Positions 48,714-56,059 of a stretch of 64,000 nt of DNA are shown here, in pieces (position 1 is the stretch's first letter; each line of letters begins with the position of its first letter). Under the pieces are notes generated by a model. It was given only the letters and a program-made list of their open reading frames with translations. It was not told where the DNA came from and did not search any database. Both the position numbers and the translations under genes were made by a program. This DNA comes from Rhizobiaceae bacterium (GTDB lineage Bacteria; Pseudomonadota; Alphaproteobacteria; Rhizobiales; Rhizobiaceae): contig JANQMU010000042.1 of NCBI GenBank assembly GCA_028279875.1, forward strand, positions 1 to 64,000, in the 5' to 3' direction.

Positions 48714-49157
48714 AGCGTCGAGTTGAAATAGGAGTCTGCAGCGACTTCTTGTGCCCTCAAACTCCGCTTGCGGTTTTCCAATACCAGTACGCCTGACTGA
48801 CCCAACACTATAGGTGTCGCCAACCGCAGCCCGCTTCCAGCCATTCCGGGACGTTGAGCAAGGAAGCGGGTGATCACAGAACGCTCCAGCCAGACTGTAT
48901 TCCAGATGTGTGTTCGAGACGGAAGCCGTGAGCATGGGGTGGCGACCTTACGAACTCCGGTGATTTGCTGGTAGTGCGTGATTTTTTCTACAACCCTTGC
49001 GCTACACATAGCAGTCTTTTGAAGTTACTCTTCAAACACTGAGTTTATGAAGAGAGGGGTTGCTGCAGAAATACAATCAGAAAATAGACTATTCACGAAT
49101 GAATCACGATGGATGTGGCTTTAGTCTGCTACATGACAAAACACGGGAGATATATTC
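48714..49157. other. Intergenic region at the left edge of the accessory island
   Basis: About 440 bp, AT-richer towards the right, with no recognisable gene. A 99-codon open frame on the minus strand (48710-49009) overlaps the end of azlD, has no ribosome binding site and no domain I recognise. The last 130 bp are AT-rich and presumably carry the promoter of the PAP2 gene. No tRNA, direct repeat or integrase remnant is seen that would mark an insertion point. Confidence 0.4.
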
Positions 49158-50321
49158 ATGGTGAGCGTTGCTGGAAGTCACGGTGGGGGATTAGCCGGAA
49201 GCCATGGCGGAGGATTGGCTGGAAGCCATGGCGGAGGATTGGCTGGAAGCCATGGTGGGGGATTGGCTGGAAGCCACGGCGGCGGTCTTGCTGGCAGCCA
49301 CGGAGGCCAACATGCCGGAAGTCCGGGTTCGGCTCTGTTATCACATGCGTTGGCAGTTACTCACGACGCGACGACAGGCTATTGGCGGCCAGACCCGGCA
49401 AATATTGAAGATCCACCCGTGCCAAGTCACCTCAACAGCCTGGAATATCTTTCTCCGGCACGCCGCGGCCAGATTCTCCTTGGGGGGCTCATGGGTCGCT
49501 TTCGCGTCAAACCAAGCAGATATAATCGTGATGGCCTCGCCCGCAAAGCGTCAGTTAGGCTTGATGGGAGGAAGATCGGCGCCGTTGAAGCACCCGCTTT
49601 AACAACCCTCAAAACGCAGCTTGCCTGGGTCCGCAATTATGCAGACCTCCGTGACGATCGGATTGCGGAAATCACCATCCAGACCGGGGATGTGCTGTCG
49701 TTTTTCGGGGCGGTTTCCTTGCTCAACCTATCTCGCAGGCAAAAGACCCTTGAGCTGCTTTCAATCGTACAATCGCTCGCGGTTTATCTTGAAATGCAGG
49801 TGAAACACCATTGCTGGTCACCCAGACCCATAGACTTTGCCGAACAGGTACAGCCTGTAATCCAAACTCCAGATCATTCAACTTTTCCATCCGGTCACGC
49901 TGTCGAAGCGCATGCCATCGCAACTGTGCTGCATCGGTTGAAAACCGGGCAATCCGCGAAGAACGGTGCATCACACTCATCACGTCGCCGACCGGCGATG
50001 GTGTTCCGGACTGCTCATCGAATTGCGGTCAACCGAACGATTGCGGGCGTGCATTTTCCGGTCGATTCCGCAGCAGGAGCTCTTCTTGGGTGCATGATTG
50101 GAGAGGCTGTTCACAGCATTGCCGTCGGTGCGCGGCTCTATAAAGCCAGTTACGGGCCGGGATCCAAGGTGTTGCCCGATGAAGACGACTTCGTGTCACA
50201 CTGGCTGGCTGACGCACTTCCGGAAAGGCCGAGGGGTCGAAATGTACCGTATAGATTTCATTTGTTCAGCCAGTTCTGGAGCGCAGCCCAGAGTGAGTGG
50301 CGGACCGGAGACAACCCATGA
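49158..50321 (+). CDS. PAP2 / vanadium haloperoxidase-fold phosphatase with N-terminal GSHGGGLA octarepeats
   Basis: The 387-residue protein has no signal peptide or membrane helix. Residues 6-53 are six tandem octapeptides: five identical GSHGGGLA and one degenerate GSHGGQHA. The C-terminal half is a PAP2 / vanadium chloroperoxidase domain with the three phosphatase motifs in order: KX6RP (K216-P224, KHHCWSPRP), PSGH (P244-H247) and RX5H (R293-H299, RTIAGVH). It therefore should bind vanadate or phosphate and act as an acid phosphatase or haloperoxidase-like enzyme. GGGAGATATATTC precedes the ATG. Its last four bases overlap the protease start (ATGA). HGGG is the copper-binding core of prion octarepeats, so the repeat may bind metal; this is inference. 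Confidence 0.88.
   Translation: MVSVAGSHGGGLAGSHGGGLAGSHGGGLAGSHGGGLAGSHGGGLAGSHGGQHAGSPGSALLSHALAVTHDATTGYWRPDPANIEDPPVPSHLNSLEYLSPARRGQILLGGLMGRFRVKPSRYNRDGLARKASVRLDGRKIGAVEAPALTTLKTQLAWVRNYADLRDDRIAEITIQTGDVLSFFGAVSLLNLSRRQKTLELLSIVQSLAVYLEMQVKHHCWSPRPIDFAEQVQPVIQTPDHSTFPSGHAVEAHAIATVLHRLKTGQSAKNGASHSSRRRPAMVFRTAHRIAVNRTIAGVHFPVDSAAGALLGCMIGEAVHSIAVGARLYKASYGPGSKVLPDEDDFVSHWLADALPERPRGRNVPYRFHLFSQFWSAAQSEWRTGDNP
49173..49316 (+). repeat. 24-bp tandem repeat encoding GSHGGGLA (x6)
   Basis: Six consecutive 24-base units, in frame, starting at 49173, 49197, 49221, 49245, 49269 and 49293. The first five encode identical octapeptides but differ at synonymous sites; the last is degenerate. There are no spacers, so this is a coding minisatellite, not CRISPR. 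Copy number may vary by slippage. Confidence 0.95.
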
Positions 50322-52453
50322 CCGGTCAATGGAGTAAATGGAAAAAATTTGAAGGTGCCTTTCCCTATGTCGATTGGTGGGGAAAGCTGGGGCGTGCGTT
50401 CGTGAATGATTCAGAAGAAAGCCTCGATCCCGAAGAGCTTGGCAACCAGATTGCACGGTCCTTTCTGGTGCCGGAACAGAGCCCGCTGGCCAAAGGATGC
50501 AAATCAAGCAAACACTGTCGCTACGACACGTTTGTTCCGATCCCGAACTTCGCCAAGAATGGCGGATTCAAGGATCATATTGAAACTGGCGCGGGTTGGC
50601 TGCCGGATCCAGATTTGCTGCCTGAAATTGCCGACGACACCGTCATCGTCGGGGTCATTGATACCGGTATACCCCTTGGCCACAATCGTTTTCGCCTGGC
50701 AGATGGATCGTCGCGGATATTAGCGGCCTGGCAAATGCTTGCGCCGTGGTCAGGACCAGATGGGCTGGAACAGGAATATCTTCCTTTCGGCCGTGAGTTT
50801 TATCAATGCGGTCTTGATGTTCTGCTTCGACGCCATAGTGGCGGAAACCTCCGCGGTTGGCTTGACGAAAACAGCTTCAATACGGCAACAGGCGTAGTCA
50901 ACATGAAACACATGCTGGGCCATCGCGAGGCAGCCGGGCGTTATTCCCACGGTGCGCATGTTCTTGACGCAGCGGCGGGTGTAGATCCGTTTGATCCTGG
51001 CGAGGATGTCGATTTCCTCGAGCGTGTGAAGATCATTGCGGTGAACATCCCAAGCAGCACGACCTTTGGCGCATCGGGTACGTTTCTCGATCAGTTCATG
51101 ATCTACGCCATTCAACGCATTTCAGACCTGGCGGATGCAATCTGGCAAAAGAACCATCCAGATGCTGTAGCTGGCGATCGACGCGGATATCCTGTTGTCA
51201 TGAACGTGTCATTTGGAAAACAGGCTGGTTCGAAAACGACCGTCGACAAATTCCCGGCAACCCTCCGCAACTTCAAGGATGGTCGGGAGCATGCGGAAAG
51301 GGATAGGCTGGAGCCTGTCTATTTTGTCATGCCGGCCGGCAATGACAATCTGGATCGCTGCAATGCCTATTTGGAGCCGAAAGGCCGGTCGACGATGACT
51401 TTGGATTGGCGCATTCTTCCGGATGACCGGTCGTCCAACTACGTGGAAATCTGGACCCGGGAGAATTTTGCCGGGTCAAACCCGCTCGAGATTGCTGTCA
51501 TTCCCCCGGGCGGTGATGAAGTCAATTTTCCTCCCAGCCGCGGCAAAGACGGACATGTCCGGATTTTAAAGGACGGAAGTGCCGGAATATATCTCCAATC
51601 GATGGAAGATCCCAGCGTCGCCGACTTCAAAAAGTTCCGTTATGTGGTCTGCATCGCACCAACAGTGCAATCCGAAAGCGACAATGCATTGGCGCGGGCC
51701 GGCGTCTGGAAAATAGTCGTTCGAAACAGACTGCGCAGCCAGGTCCAGTGCGTGGTCTCAGTTCAGACGGATCAGAAGATTCTGCCAGGCGGCGGCATTA
51801 ACCTCAGGTCCTATTTTGACGACGAGGGGTATCGGAAGTACACGGATGAGGGCCGTCTCGTGGAAAGCTACAGCTATCCGGATAGTCGGGCGACCAATAT
51901 GGATGTACAGGCAAACACACCGGTACGTCGGCATGGCACCATGAATTCATCAGCGGCTCACGAATATGTCGCGCGGGTCGGAGGGTATCGGGCATCGGAC
52001 GGAAAGCCCGCATCCTATTCTTCTACGGGGCGGGGACCTGTGCGCGAAGACAGAAGGGATGATGGAACGAATCTTGGTTCCTCCAAGGCAGGTGGGCGGG
52101 CACTGGCGCCAACAGCAAGCTTGCCGACCGATGATGGACCGGCCCATTTCGGAATACTGTCTGCAGGTGCGGCGAACGGTTCGGTAATTGCGATGCAGGG
52201 GACCAGTTTTGCTTCTTCGCAGGCAACGCGCCTCGTTGTGAAATCGGTTCTCAAAGATCCGGATTCCGGACTGACGGAAAATCAGCGGCTTTTCTTTGCC
52301 GCTAAAGCTTCGGAAGCAGAGGACAAGAAAAGGCGCAGGGTTCGTACGCCGCCCTACCATGCAGGCAAATATCAAAATGAGCTTATTGAGGTGCTTGGCG
52401 GTGGTCGAATTCCAAGTCCGCTTAAACCCAGGGTGAACCGCACTGGTTGTTAA
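50318..52453 (+). CDS. S8 (subtilisin-family) serine protease
   Basis: The 711-residue protein has all subtilase residues: Asp115 in VIVGVIDTGIP, His211 in RYSHGAHVLDAAAG, Asn342 in YFVMPAGNDN (oxyanion hole) and Ser630 in MQGTSFASSQATRL. About 288 residues separate Asn342 and Ser630, so a large domain is inserted there, including a beta-rich region (STMTLDWRILPDDRSSNYVE). There is no signal peptide, unlike secreted subtilases, so it may be cytoplasmic or exported by another route. ATG at 50318 overlaps the PAP2 stop (ATGA) and is preceded by GGAG, indicating translational coupling. A partner role with the octarepeat phosphatase is inferred from this. Confidence 0.93.
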   Translation: MTGQWSKWKKFEGAFPYVDWWGKLGRAFVNDSEESLDPEELGNQIARSFLVPEQSPLAKGCKSSKHCRYDTFVPIPNFAKNGGFKDHIETGAGWLPDPDLLPEIADDTVIVGVIDTGIPLGHNRFRLADGSSRILAAWQMLAPWSGPDGLEQEYLPFGREFYQCGLDVLLRRHSGGNLRGWLDENSFNTATGVVNMKHMLGHREAAGRYSHGAHVLDAAAGVDPFDPGEDVDFLERVKIIAVNIPSSTTFGASGTFLDQFMIYAIQRISDLADAIWQKNHPDAVAGDRRGYPVVMNVSFGKQAGSKTTVDKFPATLRNFKDGREHAERDRLEPVYFVMPAGNDNLDRCNAYLEPKGRSTMTLDWRILPDDRSSNYVEIWTRENFAGSNPLEIAVIPPGGDEVNFPPSRGKDGHVRILKDGSAGIYLQSMEDPSVADFKKFRYVVCIAPTVQSESDNALARAGVWKIVVRNRLRSQVQCVVSVQTDQKILPGGGINLRSYFDDEGYRKYTDEGRLVESYSYPDSRATNMDVQANTPVRRHGTMNSSAAHEYVARVGGYRASDGKPASYSSTGRGPVREDRRDDGTNLGSSKAGGRALAPTASLPTDDGPAHFGILSAGAANGSVIAMQGTSFASSQATRLVVKSVLKDPDSGLTENQRLFFAAKASEAEDKKRRRVRTPPYHAGKYQNELIEVLGGGRIPSPLKPRVNRTGC

Positions 52454-52503: not shown

Positions 52504-54471
52504 TCAATGTTCCACATCCGGCAGTCGTTCCAACCCCAGAGACCGGATGACGCTGGCAGGATAGGCGGGATCATCGCGAATCCTGGACATGGAAAAATCC
52601 GGCTCCAGGCGGCGTAGTTTTGTCAATGTGTCAAACGCCCCCTCGCGGTCTCCATTGTGCAGTTGCAGGGCGTATAAATGGCGCAGCGGCGGACGAGAGT
52701 TCGGTGCAAGAATGGCGGCACGTTTGGCAGCGTTGATGGCCTCGGCGAACCTCCCGACGCTCATGGCTGCAAGGCAATATCTCAGGTTTGAAAATGGTTG
52801 CAGGGAGGTGTTTTGAAGCTGCGTTTTGGCACGTCTGGCGGACAGAAATGCCTCTTTGGCCCGGCCGCGTCGCAATTCGAGTGCCCCTAGACTCGCGTGG
52901 GCGTAGCCGGTGCCGGCATCCATTTCCAATGCGATTTTCGCATAGGACAAAGCGGTCTGAGCATCTTCAAACACCAGATCATGTACATCGGCAAGGAACG
53001 CCATGACGATCGCGCTTTCAGCGCCTGAGGATAATGCCTCGCTCGATAAGAATTTGGCCTCCTCTTTGGTTTCTTCAATCTCGGACCCTGTCTGTTCTAC
53101 CGCGAGGTAAGCTTTTGCCAGAGCTCTCAGAGCCGGCCGGGATGCATGCGGATCGATCTCATGGGCATGCGCCAACAATTTGTCCGCTTGTCTGACGAGC
53201 GCCGCGTCGAAACTGAAAACTTTCTGCAGCGCTTCAGCGGCCATGGCGTTGGCAATTGCAGCCTCCCCGGCCAAGTCAGTGCAAGCTGCAACCGCCTCGG
53301 TTGCCTCCAGTGCCAGCGAAGCCCCGGCATCTATGGCGGCCAGTTCATCGGCAGCGTCAAAGGAGAGTCTTCGCGACCAGAAAAACCGTCCGGATGGCTC
53401 GTGGGTCAAGCGAGCGAGGACCATCATTTTGTCGTCGTTTTCGGTAACGTAGATGACGCACCGAGTTCCCGGCGCGACAACAGAGCATACCGGCCGTCCG
53501 TAATGTTCCAAAACGCTTATGCGTGCATGACCAACGGCGGTGCGGCTCAACTGCGCCTTGATAGACTCGGCAACGAAAGCTTCTAGCCCTTCTGTAGAGG
53601 AAACAGATTCAGCCCATAAAATCGGGGGCATATTCTCAACTGTATCGTCCGCGGCCGCGTTGGCATTGGTTTCAAGAATTTGACGCGAGACTGAAGTGGA
53701 TTGCGGCGAGGCAGCGCTTTCAAACTGACCGCTCTTTATCTTGGAGATAAGTGCCTGGGTTGCCTCGTCGGGCTCCATGTCGTGTTCTTCGTCCAACAGG
53801 TCCCACAGCAGTTTGTATTGACTTAAAGCTGCAGCGATGTTGCCAACAGAGGCGTAATGAGAGATGAGCTGGCGGTGAGCAAGTTCATGGGCAGGGTCCA
53901 CGTGAAGTAACGCTTCCGCGGTTTCTTTGACTTTACTGGTCGGGGCGGTCGCAAGTCGGCGTCCCAGCTCTTCGATGATCCTGTTATGCCAATTGACGCG
54001 CACGCCCTGCAGCCACGTGGTGAAGGACTGGTCCAGCGATTCGAACCCATAAAGCATATCTTTTGGATCGCCTCTGGCTTCAGCCAAAGGAACTGGAAGG
54101 TCGCCTGCTTCGAGCTGGGACATCATGTCGAAGAGATCAACGTCGATGCGGTCTGCTTGCAATAGAACATCTCTGCGATCGGTCTGAAAACCTTCAAATC
54201 CGATGTCGCGGAACATGGCGCGCAACTGTTTCAGCGTCTGCCTCAGCGAAGCACGTGCACGTTCTTCATCTCTTTCACTCCAGAGCAGCCCGGCGAGACG
54301 TTCCCGACTTTCGAATTTGCTGCGAGTTAGAACCAGATATGAAATCAAGGCACACGCCTTCTGGTTGACAAGGTGAACCTTGTTTCCTTCGGAGTCCTGC
54401 AGGTTGAATCCGCCAAGAACAGAGAGGCGTATTCTTGGTTCTGTGAAATTCCCCTCGACTGAATTTGGCAT
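52504..54471 (-). CDS. SARP/BTAD-type transcriptional regulator with C-terminal TPR region
   Basis: The 655-residue protein begins with a winged-helix DNA-binding domain of OmpR/SARP type (RIRLSVLGGFNLQDSEGNKV to about residue 110), followed by a bacterial transcriptional activation domain (about residues 120-250, with ALLHVDPAHELAHRQLISHY). The middle is poorly defined (SVLEHYGRPVCSVV; adenylate-cyclase-like regulators of rhizobia have a similar plan), and the C-terminal third has TPR-like repeats (SYAKIALEMDAGTGYAHASL). Cytoplasmic. It is convergent with the protease gene (51 nt between stops) and is the only regulator in the island, so it is a natural candidate to control it. GGGGTG precedes the ATG. 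Confidence 0.87.
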   Translation of the reverse strand: MPNSVEGNFTEPRIRLSVLGGFNLQDSEGNKVHLVNQKACALISYLVLTRSKFESRERLAGLLWSERDEERARASLRQTLKQLRAMFRDIGFEGFQTDRRDVLLQADRIDVDLFDMMSQLEAGDLPVPLAEARGDPKDMLYGFESLDQSFTTWLQGVRVNWHNRIIEELGRRLATAPTSKVKETAEALLHVDPAHELAHRQLISHYASVGNIAAALSQYKLLWDLLDEEHDMEPDEATQALISKIKSGQFESAASPQSTSVSRQILETNANAAADDTVENMPPILWAESVSSTEGLEAFVAESIKAQLSRTAVGHARISVLEHYGRPVCSVVAPGTRCVIYVTENDDKMMVLARLTHEPSGRFFWSRRLSFDAADELAAIDAGASLALEATEAVAACTDLAGEAAIANAMAAEALQKVFSFDAALVRQADKLLAHAHEIDPHASRPALRALAKAYLAVEQTGSEIEETKEEAKFLSSEALSSGAESAIVMAFLADVHDLVFEDAQTALSYAKIALEMDAGTGYAHASLGALELRRGRAKEAFLSARRAKTQLQNTSLQPFSNLRYCLAAMSVGRFAEAINAAKRAAILAPNSRPPLRHLYALQLHNGDREGAFDTLTKLRRLEPDFSMSRIRDDPAYPASVIRSLGLERLPDVEH

Positions 54472-55441: not shown

Positions 55442-56059
55442 CTATGATGCTGGCCAGCGATATCCAAGCAGGCGGCTATCTGAATATGATGAGTAATTGA
55501 CGGCGTTTTTCTGATTTCCGCCGAGCACCAGGATATGATTGCCCTGAAGGCTATCGAAAAAGCCCACATGGCCTGTCCAGGAATGGGGCGGTCTTGAGAA
55601 AATGACGATGCACCCCTTTCTGGGATGCGAGATCTTTTCACCCCACTGCAGCCAGGATCGGGCGGCGGCACTGTCGGTGCCCTGCCTGCCGGATTTTTCG
55701 ATGCACCAGTTGACAAAAGATGAACACCAAGGCGTCTCATCATCGGTCGCTTTCAAGGACGTTGAGTCGTGGTACTCGATGATTTTCGGGTTGTGCTCAG
55801 AGCCTGCTATTTCGGTTTCGCCCAACTCATTCTGGGCGATCGAAAACCAGGGGCAATCACCGGCCGCGCCATTCCCAGGTGCATCAAGGGTCCCGTTTGA
55901 CCCGTTTTGCGAAGGAATGTTTATTGACTGTCCAACATGAATAATGTCGGGGTCGCTGATATGCGGGTTGATTGCCAGCAAGGCATTCAGTGACGTCCCA
56001 AATCTGGTGGAAATCCCGTGCATCGTATCGCCGGATCTGACTACGTAAATCTGAGGCAT
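55442..56059 (-). CDS. LysM-CHAP (TIGR02594-type) cell wall hydrolase
   Basis: The 205-residue protein has an N-terminal LysM domain (residues about 3-50, YVVRSGDTMHGISTRFGTSL), a short linker rich in Gly/Asn, and a C-terminal CHAP-like domain (about 70-205): NPKIIEYHDSTSLKATDDET, catalytic Cys in PWCSSFVNWCIE, and His in HVGFFDSLQGNHILVLGG. Such proteins cleave peptidoglycan peptides or amide bonds. No signal peptide is present, as in phage-type endolysins, so export would need another route. AGGGAGACAATC precedes the ATG. It is the last gene of the four-gene operon, 45 nt after the three-helix membrane protein. Confidence 0.88.
   Translation of the reverse strand: MPQIYVVRSGDTMHGISTRFGTSLNALLAINPHISDPDIIHVGQSINIPSQNGSNGTLDAPGNGAAGDCPWFSIAQNELGETEIAGSEHNPKIIEYHDSTSLKATDDETPWCSSFVNWCIEKSGRQGTDSAAARSWLQWGEKISHPRKGCIVIFSRPPHSWTGHVGFFDSLQGNHILVLGGNQKNAVNYSSYSDSRLLGYRWPAS

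Follow-up and report, generated by a model that had tools for sequence, protein, structure and literature searches.

The 64,000-nucleotide stretch of DNA that was analysed (the window) contains a gene for a PAP2-superfamily enzyme whose N-terminus is a tandem array of octapeptides, raising the question of what is conserved in such a tail and what the tail does on an enzyme. The features of the gene are as follows.

49145..49149, + strand: Shine-Dalgarno-like GGGAG (sequence)
49158..50321, + strand: repeat-tailed PAP2-superfamily enzyme, 387 aa (ORF; Pfam PF01569, E=3.2e-12; AF2 model)
49173..49316, + strand: tandem array, five GSHGGGLA units plus the degenerate GSHGGQHA (sequence)
49803..49829, + strand: PAP2 motif 1, K216-x6-R223-P224 (invariant in alignment A1)
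49887..49898, + strand: PAP2 motif 2, PSGH, residues 244-247 (P, G and H invariant, S nearly invariant in A1)
50034..50054, + strand: PAP2 motif 3, R293-x5-H299 (R293 and H299 invariant in A1)

The ORF starts with an ATG that is preceded by GGGAG 8 bases upstream. A sequence-only reading had reported tandem octarepeats and all three PAP2 motifs in this ORF, and both were confirmed: the five units are exact, with a sixth, degenerate copy behind them, and the motifs KX6RP, PSGH and RX5H together with the PAP2 Pfam domain, the sole domain above the cut-off in the Pfam scan, place the enzyme in the PAP2 superfamily. In the 29-row alignment, K216, R223, P224, P244, G246, H247, R293 and H299 are invariant and S245 is nearly so; the active-site residues are common to vanadium haloperoxidases and phosphatases. 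The AF2 model, which has a mean pLDDT of 86.1 with values below 50 for residues 1-51 (the array), shows the class A acid phosphatase fold. For VCPO_2nd (PF22778), a precomputed match exists on the window protein (P0001), and none was found in hmmscan or in G000; a search with PF22778 yielded seven loci, and the one that was read, L136, encodes an ordinary haloperoxidase-like protein. No hydrophobic leader or secretion signal is visible by eye in the window enzyme, and the array stands at the protein start. The differences between its units are synonymous only, and the DNA sequences of units 2 and 3 are identical. An exact search of the window's whole genome with the degenerate DNA pattern encoding the octapeptide gave no match outside the PAP2 gene.

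Among the 120 listed of 195 database homologues, a count that includes many fragments and late-started entries, 18 have at least three perfect units within their 110 N-terminal residues. Because database proteins often miss the tail for these reasons, the loci were read at the DNA level. A scan of named genomes gave 155 related stretches, the best 80 were kept, and each frame was followed upstream as far as the preceding stop codon. In 78 of these 80 loci, the enzyme carries a tandem peptide array at its N-terminus, so that repeats joined to PAP2 domains, which the sequence-only reading had proposed to look for in other genomes, do occur there, though the units vary. The remaining two loci, L021 and L059, are masked at the array position, and L065, which is partly masked, still has 4.5 units. 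With the window included, the 79 arrays represent 39 distinct units, e.g. GGTH, GKM, GRS, GQ and NAE. The period is 4 residues in 46 arrays, 3 in 20, 2 in seven, 5 in five and 8 in one, and the arrays range from 3.25 to 21 copies and from 13 to 68 residues. An in-frame start lies at or before the array in 78 of the 79 cases (73 of them ATG), L065 being masked there.

For comparison, we searched the first 200 residues of the frames of 879 other ORFs of at least 200 aa kept from the 80 loci. The single ORF with an array encodes a further PAP2 paralogue, whose unit is SAY, leaving 0 of 878 for unrelated ORFs. The overlap filter of the control script retained 62 of the 80 PAP2 ORFs, 61 of which have an array. 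Since the control ORFs are nearly devoid of arrays, their presence on PAP2 enzymes is not due to chance. When ORFs of at least 90 aa were scanned along their whole length, repeats besides those of the SAY paralogue were found only in unrelated frames of L060 and L085. The former (L060:14267-14990) belongs to an unrelated ORF of 886 aa with (DPV)17.7 and (VDP)12, about 4.5 kb from the enzyme, with repeats also in other frames; in L085, the repeats are IIT and GDD. A second, diverged module with a tenfold SAY tail and a subtilase is located on the opposite strand near the first one, which has a GS tail (L081:13752-17108).

The interiors of the arrays comprise 713 units with 2498 residues, of which two deviate (in L048 and L054); each array was delimited from its longest perfect run, and the tally leaves aside degenerate units at the edges, among them the sixth of the window. 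At the DNA level, 1103 of 1477 fourfold third positions (74.7%) differ between neighbouring units, and the mean unit-to-unit difference is 0.219, compared with 0.233 for codons drawn from local usage. Some arrays are less mixed than the average, including those of the window (0.18 versus 0.26 expected from random codon draws) and L006 (0.10 versus 0.30). Because the residues are near-perfect while the fourfold sites are saturated, we infer that the peptide sequence of the arrays is held by selection. The claim that the window's repeats are translated and selected as a peptide was thereby borne out, by the synonymous-only unit differences and by the codon pattern of the family. The mixing of codons to saturation also means that the DNA of the arrays is not repetitive. 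In 60 of the 74 arrays with at least five units, neighbouring DNA units are less alike than shuffled ones (p=6e-8), which is consistent with an avoidance of DNA self-similarity; at a distance of two units, no significant effect relative to shuffled units was found in these 74 arrays (32 higher, 42 lower). In L127, from another genome of the window's genus, the array consists of ten HAS units, eight of which are identical (CATGCATCT). This young array indicates that arrays are born by DNA expansion.

When the 39 units are mapped as states onto a tree of the catalytic part, at least 40 changes are needed, so that by parsimony each unit arose about once; the units largely follow the clades. Among the eight loci of the window's clade, the units are AGSHGGGL, AGSH, GGSH, GGTH, GGTQ and GGTK. 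Six genomes hold paralogues with differing units (e.g. L028/L077); such differences within one genome follow from clade membership and were excluded from the evidence. A comparison of repeat number between relatives, likewise suggested at the outset, revealed unequal copy numbers in 10 of 13 pairs, one partner (L065) being partly masked. As judged from these arrays, the unit changes between lineages while sameness within the protein is kept. Selection thus seems to act on the sameness of the repeats within one protein and not on a particular sequence, which would be an unusual mode of protein evolution.

The neighbourhood of the enzyme gene was then included, and in the window it contains two further genes, neither of which had been noted in the sequence-only reading.

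50318..52453, + strand: S8 subtilase, 711 aa (Pfam PF00082, E=3.4e-8)
52504..54471, - strand: BTAD/TPR-type transcriptional regulator, 655 aa (Pfam BTAD, E=4.9e-11)

The start of the subtilase gene overlaps the stop of the PAP2 gene by 4 bases (ATGA). The regulator gene is convergent with it, and the regulator also has weak wHTH and TPR Pfam matches below the cut-off. Asp115, His211, Asn342 and Ser630, i.e. the triad and the oxyanion Asn, are found in every one of the 77 aligned rows, as expected of an S8 subtilase; the alignment comprises the window and 76 loci, without the incomplete L006 and L036 and without L055 and L074, which yielded no extracted subtilase. In the model of the subtilase, a beta-rich stretch (strands 349-482) lies between Asn342 and Ser630, and the top fold matches are CspB, CspA and CspC (TM by target 0.54-0.74, Foldseek E values down to 6e-22), while an NCBIfam match to the Csp type is far below the cut-off.

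A subtilase gene is adjacent to the enzyme gene in 78 of 79 testable loci. The script identified 77 of the 80 (61 on the same strand, 16 convergent), and L074, at a contig edge, was added by hand; in L055, the contig ends inside the enzyme gene, which makes adjacency untestable there. The exception is L031, with the subtilase 5.5 kb upstream. At the adjacent downstream position, L031 has a protein with a caspase domain (PF00656) and a peptidoglycan-binding region (L031:11216-12844). In L006, the nearest relative of the window in the tree, the subtilase is interrupted by a transposase gene (L006:11056-12802). In 76 of the 80 loci, a relative of the BTAD/TPR regulator is encoded close to the enzyme; three of the four misses (L033, L043 and L063) have less than 800 bases upstream of the enzyme frame. 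By gene content, the TPR regulator, the repeat-tailed enzyme and the protease thus form a conserved three-gene module. Membership in a known anti-phage defence system was rejected, as none of the three window genes matched a PADLOC model up to an E value of 0.1. Downstream of the regulator, an ORF at 55442-56059 (- strand) of the window has, by eye, a LysM-like start and a CHAP-like amidase region.

We also read 29 further loci from the same phylum. Arrays are present in 29 of 29, a biased rate, as most of these loci were chosen after their tails had been seen; the units include HAS, NRS, NSF, VSG, NAD, DAR, NTG, SNT, TQQ, NK and others, and the weakest cases are L126, with three EGGG units, and L117/L118, with imperfect arrays. 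The tailed L166 and L167 come from outside the window's class, as do the genomes G459 and G662. In two of the searches, all matches with E values of 1.6e-13 or better have arrays; of the weaker ones, those that could be read, namely L108-L113 and nine out of L150-L162, encode ordinary PAP2 proteins. Among the weak matches of a single-sequence search, L089 and L090 (E about 4e-8) are tailed and L091-L094 are untailed. The sample of 385 genomes of the class gave matches in 19 at E values up to 1e-10, and a tailed member is present in 13 of them, including the window's genome. The database homologues also include entries from Burkholderiales and Steroidobacteraceae, in which a tail is not visible. 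The Roseibium aggregatum entry P0245, which begins behind the position of the tail, is 69% identical to the distant member L168. A viral scan for phage carriage yielded three distant loci only.

A TPR-type regulator was detected by tblastn in all 29 distant loci; L119, L121 and L124 were among the queries, and each of the three has its own Pfam matches. Protease candidates are present in 28 of the 29, i.e. S8 in 21, an A4/G1 (glutamic) peptidase in five and a HEFGH-motif protein in two, and no recognised protease was found in L126. Of the 21 S8 assignments, 19 are backed by non-self tblastn matches; those of L174/L175 are based on Pfam. The Pfam run included 10 of the 21, with seven above the cut-off, L127 just below it and no match for L128 and L131; for these three and for 11 others outside the run, the assignment to S8 rests on tblastn. 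The occurrence of an unrelated protease family (A4/G1) in one branch indicates that proteolysis itself is what is paired with the enzyme. In the homologues of L119, one of the A4-linked loci, the arrays are short and in part degenerate; 80 of the 120 listed (of 370) have at least three perfect units. The HEFGH-motif proteins (L117:9072-11981 and L118:9198-12116) have about 970 aa, are 43% identical, lack a Pfam match and adjoin PAP2 genes with GL and VG tails. In the diverged L174 and L175, the PAP2 core is preceded by an internal (NK)7-8 array, PSNH stands in place of PSGH, and the enzyme gene is followed by an S8 gene. Upstream of the NRS-tailed PAP2 gene of L128, a gene (L128:6354-7928) has a weak match, below the cut-off, to NAL1_N (plant NARROW LEAF 1).

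To account for these observations, we tentatively favour, at somewhat less than even probability, the view that a self-matching tail clusters or holds the enzyme and that the partner protease releases or activates it. Self-matching between molecules is suggested because the tail is identical within itself and free between lineages. The regulator would raise the expression of the module genes upon a signal. Identical units on separate molecules could pair in any register, and hence only sameness within the protein would matter, not the sequence; the tail would serve as a self-matching handle by which the enzyme is clustered or held. The Csp-like subtilase would then clip the enzyme, much as pro-SleC needs CspB to lose its propeptide and as gasdermins are clipped by proteases, and it is from the analogy with these two systems that a protease-switched enzyme is proposed. 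Its substrate might be a phosphate ester or, with vanadate, the reaction might be that of a haloperoxidase. That this is a new class of protease-switched effector module, with a sequence-free self-recognition code open to any short peptide if it is repeated identically, is a bolder proposal, which we regard as possible and rather doubtful. If true, each lineage and each paralogue would have its own private matching tail.

Several observations speak against parts of this proposal. The units range from GGGI to NAE to NK, and no single known assembly chemistry covers them all. Against a fixed pairing with a protease stand L126, the distant subtilase of L031, and L121 and L124, in which the regulator sits between subtilase and enzyme. 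The rule of perfect repeats is violated by the partly degenerate arrays of the L119 homologues and by L117/L118.

The tail could instead be a multi-site substrate of the partner protease, the units being cleavage or docking sites and trimming setting the activity. The protease adjoins the enzyme, repeated sites would require equal units, and in a comparison of 78 loci all 20 period-3 arrays go with a divergent subtilase group, which has 21 loci in total, L081 being the one without period 3. This association is, however, compatible with a single clade and one event (p-AU 0.72). Across 69 loci, unit composition correlated with subtilase distance after removal of PAP2 distance (partial Mantel 0.55, versus 0.03 for the regulator), but within the main subtilase group of 52 loci the value was 0.083 (p=0.059), so that unit and protease are not clearly linked there; for the other 17 loci it was 0.24 (p=0.017). 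A co-evolution of tail and protease was therefore withdrawn, its signal being carried by one split between subtilase groups. With the co-variation this low within the main group and consistent with one historical split, there is no need to assume that the protease reads the tail unit. In addition, glycine-rich sequences are poor subtilase substrates. Taken together, we consider multi-site cleavage unlikely.

A different role would be that of a low-complexity spacer or stabiliser, which confers solubility or resistance to ATP-dependent proteases without self-recognition, perfect repeats being the way in which low complexity arises. The residues are mostly small or polar, Gly is present in 77 of 79 arrays, and the low model confidence for residues 1-51 suggests disorder. 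A spacer would not, however, need as few as 2 deviations in 2498 residues with saturated synonymous sites, nor would it need sameness to persist while the units change, and it is a rather improbable explanation.

The sequence-only reading had proposed prion-like octarepeats that bind copper, and in this form the tail would feed or guard a metal enzyme with copper or zinc. HGGG is indeed contained in each of the window's five perfect units, and mammalian prion octarepeats are likewise tandem octapeptides with HGGG. In the family, however, His is present in only 14 of 79 arrays, Gln or Lys takes its place in other members of the window's clade (GGTQ, GGTK), the Trp of the mammalian octarepeat is found in 0 of 79 units, and period and residues change freely. 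Because the array is conserved and the histidine is not, copper binding is not the general role and was ruled out as the function of the family, and the copper/zinc reading is very improbable; metal binding by the window peptide itself is possible. A multicopy peptide precursor (pheromone or RiPP-like) from which the protease frees the peptides would be reminiscent of the alpha-factor and dikaritin precursors, which contain tandem identical peptides, and here the array stands beside a subtilase; units of 2-5 residues such as GQ and NK are small and plain, however, and the same protein continues from the array into a conserved catalytic domain, making this similarly remote. Neutral slippage, i.e. 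arrays as microsatellite-like accidents, would explain the recent expansion in L127 and the unequal copy numbers of relatives, but it is hardly credible given arrays in all unmasked loci versus none in unrelated ORFs and a near-perfect peptide with saturated codons.

Among the matches listed in searches of open-access PMC papers, the literature covered, none describes the module or the tail rule. Both the enzyme and the protease fall into established superfamilies; what seems to be new is the tail rule and the module. The module is easy to miss because so few listed database relatives show the repeats near their start. The variety of units among the arrays provides a natural experiment that is already at hand, and the pairing with a subtilase or an unrelated peptidase is a directly testable switch.

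Class A acid phosphatases (PhoN, PhoC, Shigella acid phosphohydrolase) are secreted and have no repeat tail, whereas the window enzyme has a tail and no visible signal peptide; vanadium haloperoxidases are weaker structural matches to it than the acid phosphatases. Gasdermin-protease pairs (bacterial bGSDM; fungal HET-Q1/HET-Q2) resemble the module in having an effector gene beside a protease gene, and in fungi the partners are mostly subtilases and partly CHAT proteases, often with TPR or other repeat domains (PMC10989679). The window enzyme differs in its PAP2 fold and repeat tail, with no gasdermin domain in the Pfam scan. In the CspB/pro-SleC system of Clostridium germination, SleC, a cortex hydrolase that loses an N-terminal propeptide, depends on CspB to become active, and Csp proteases carry a jellyroll insert (PMC3567191). 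The module is proteobacterial, with no secretion signal by eye, an unrelated target enzyme and a predicted cleavage step; in common with that system it appears to have a Csp-like subtilase fold with a beta-rich stretch.
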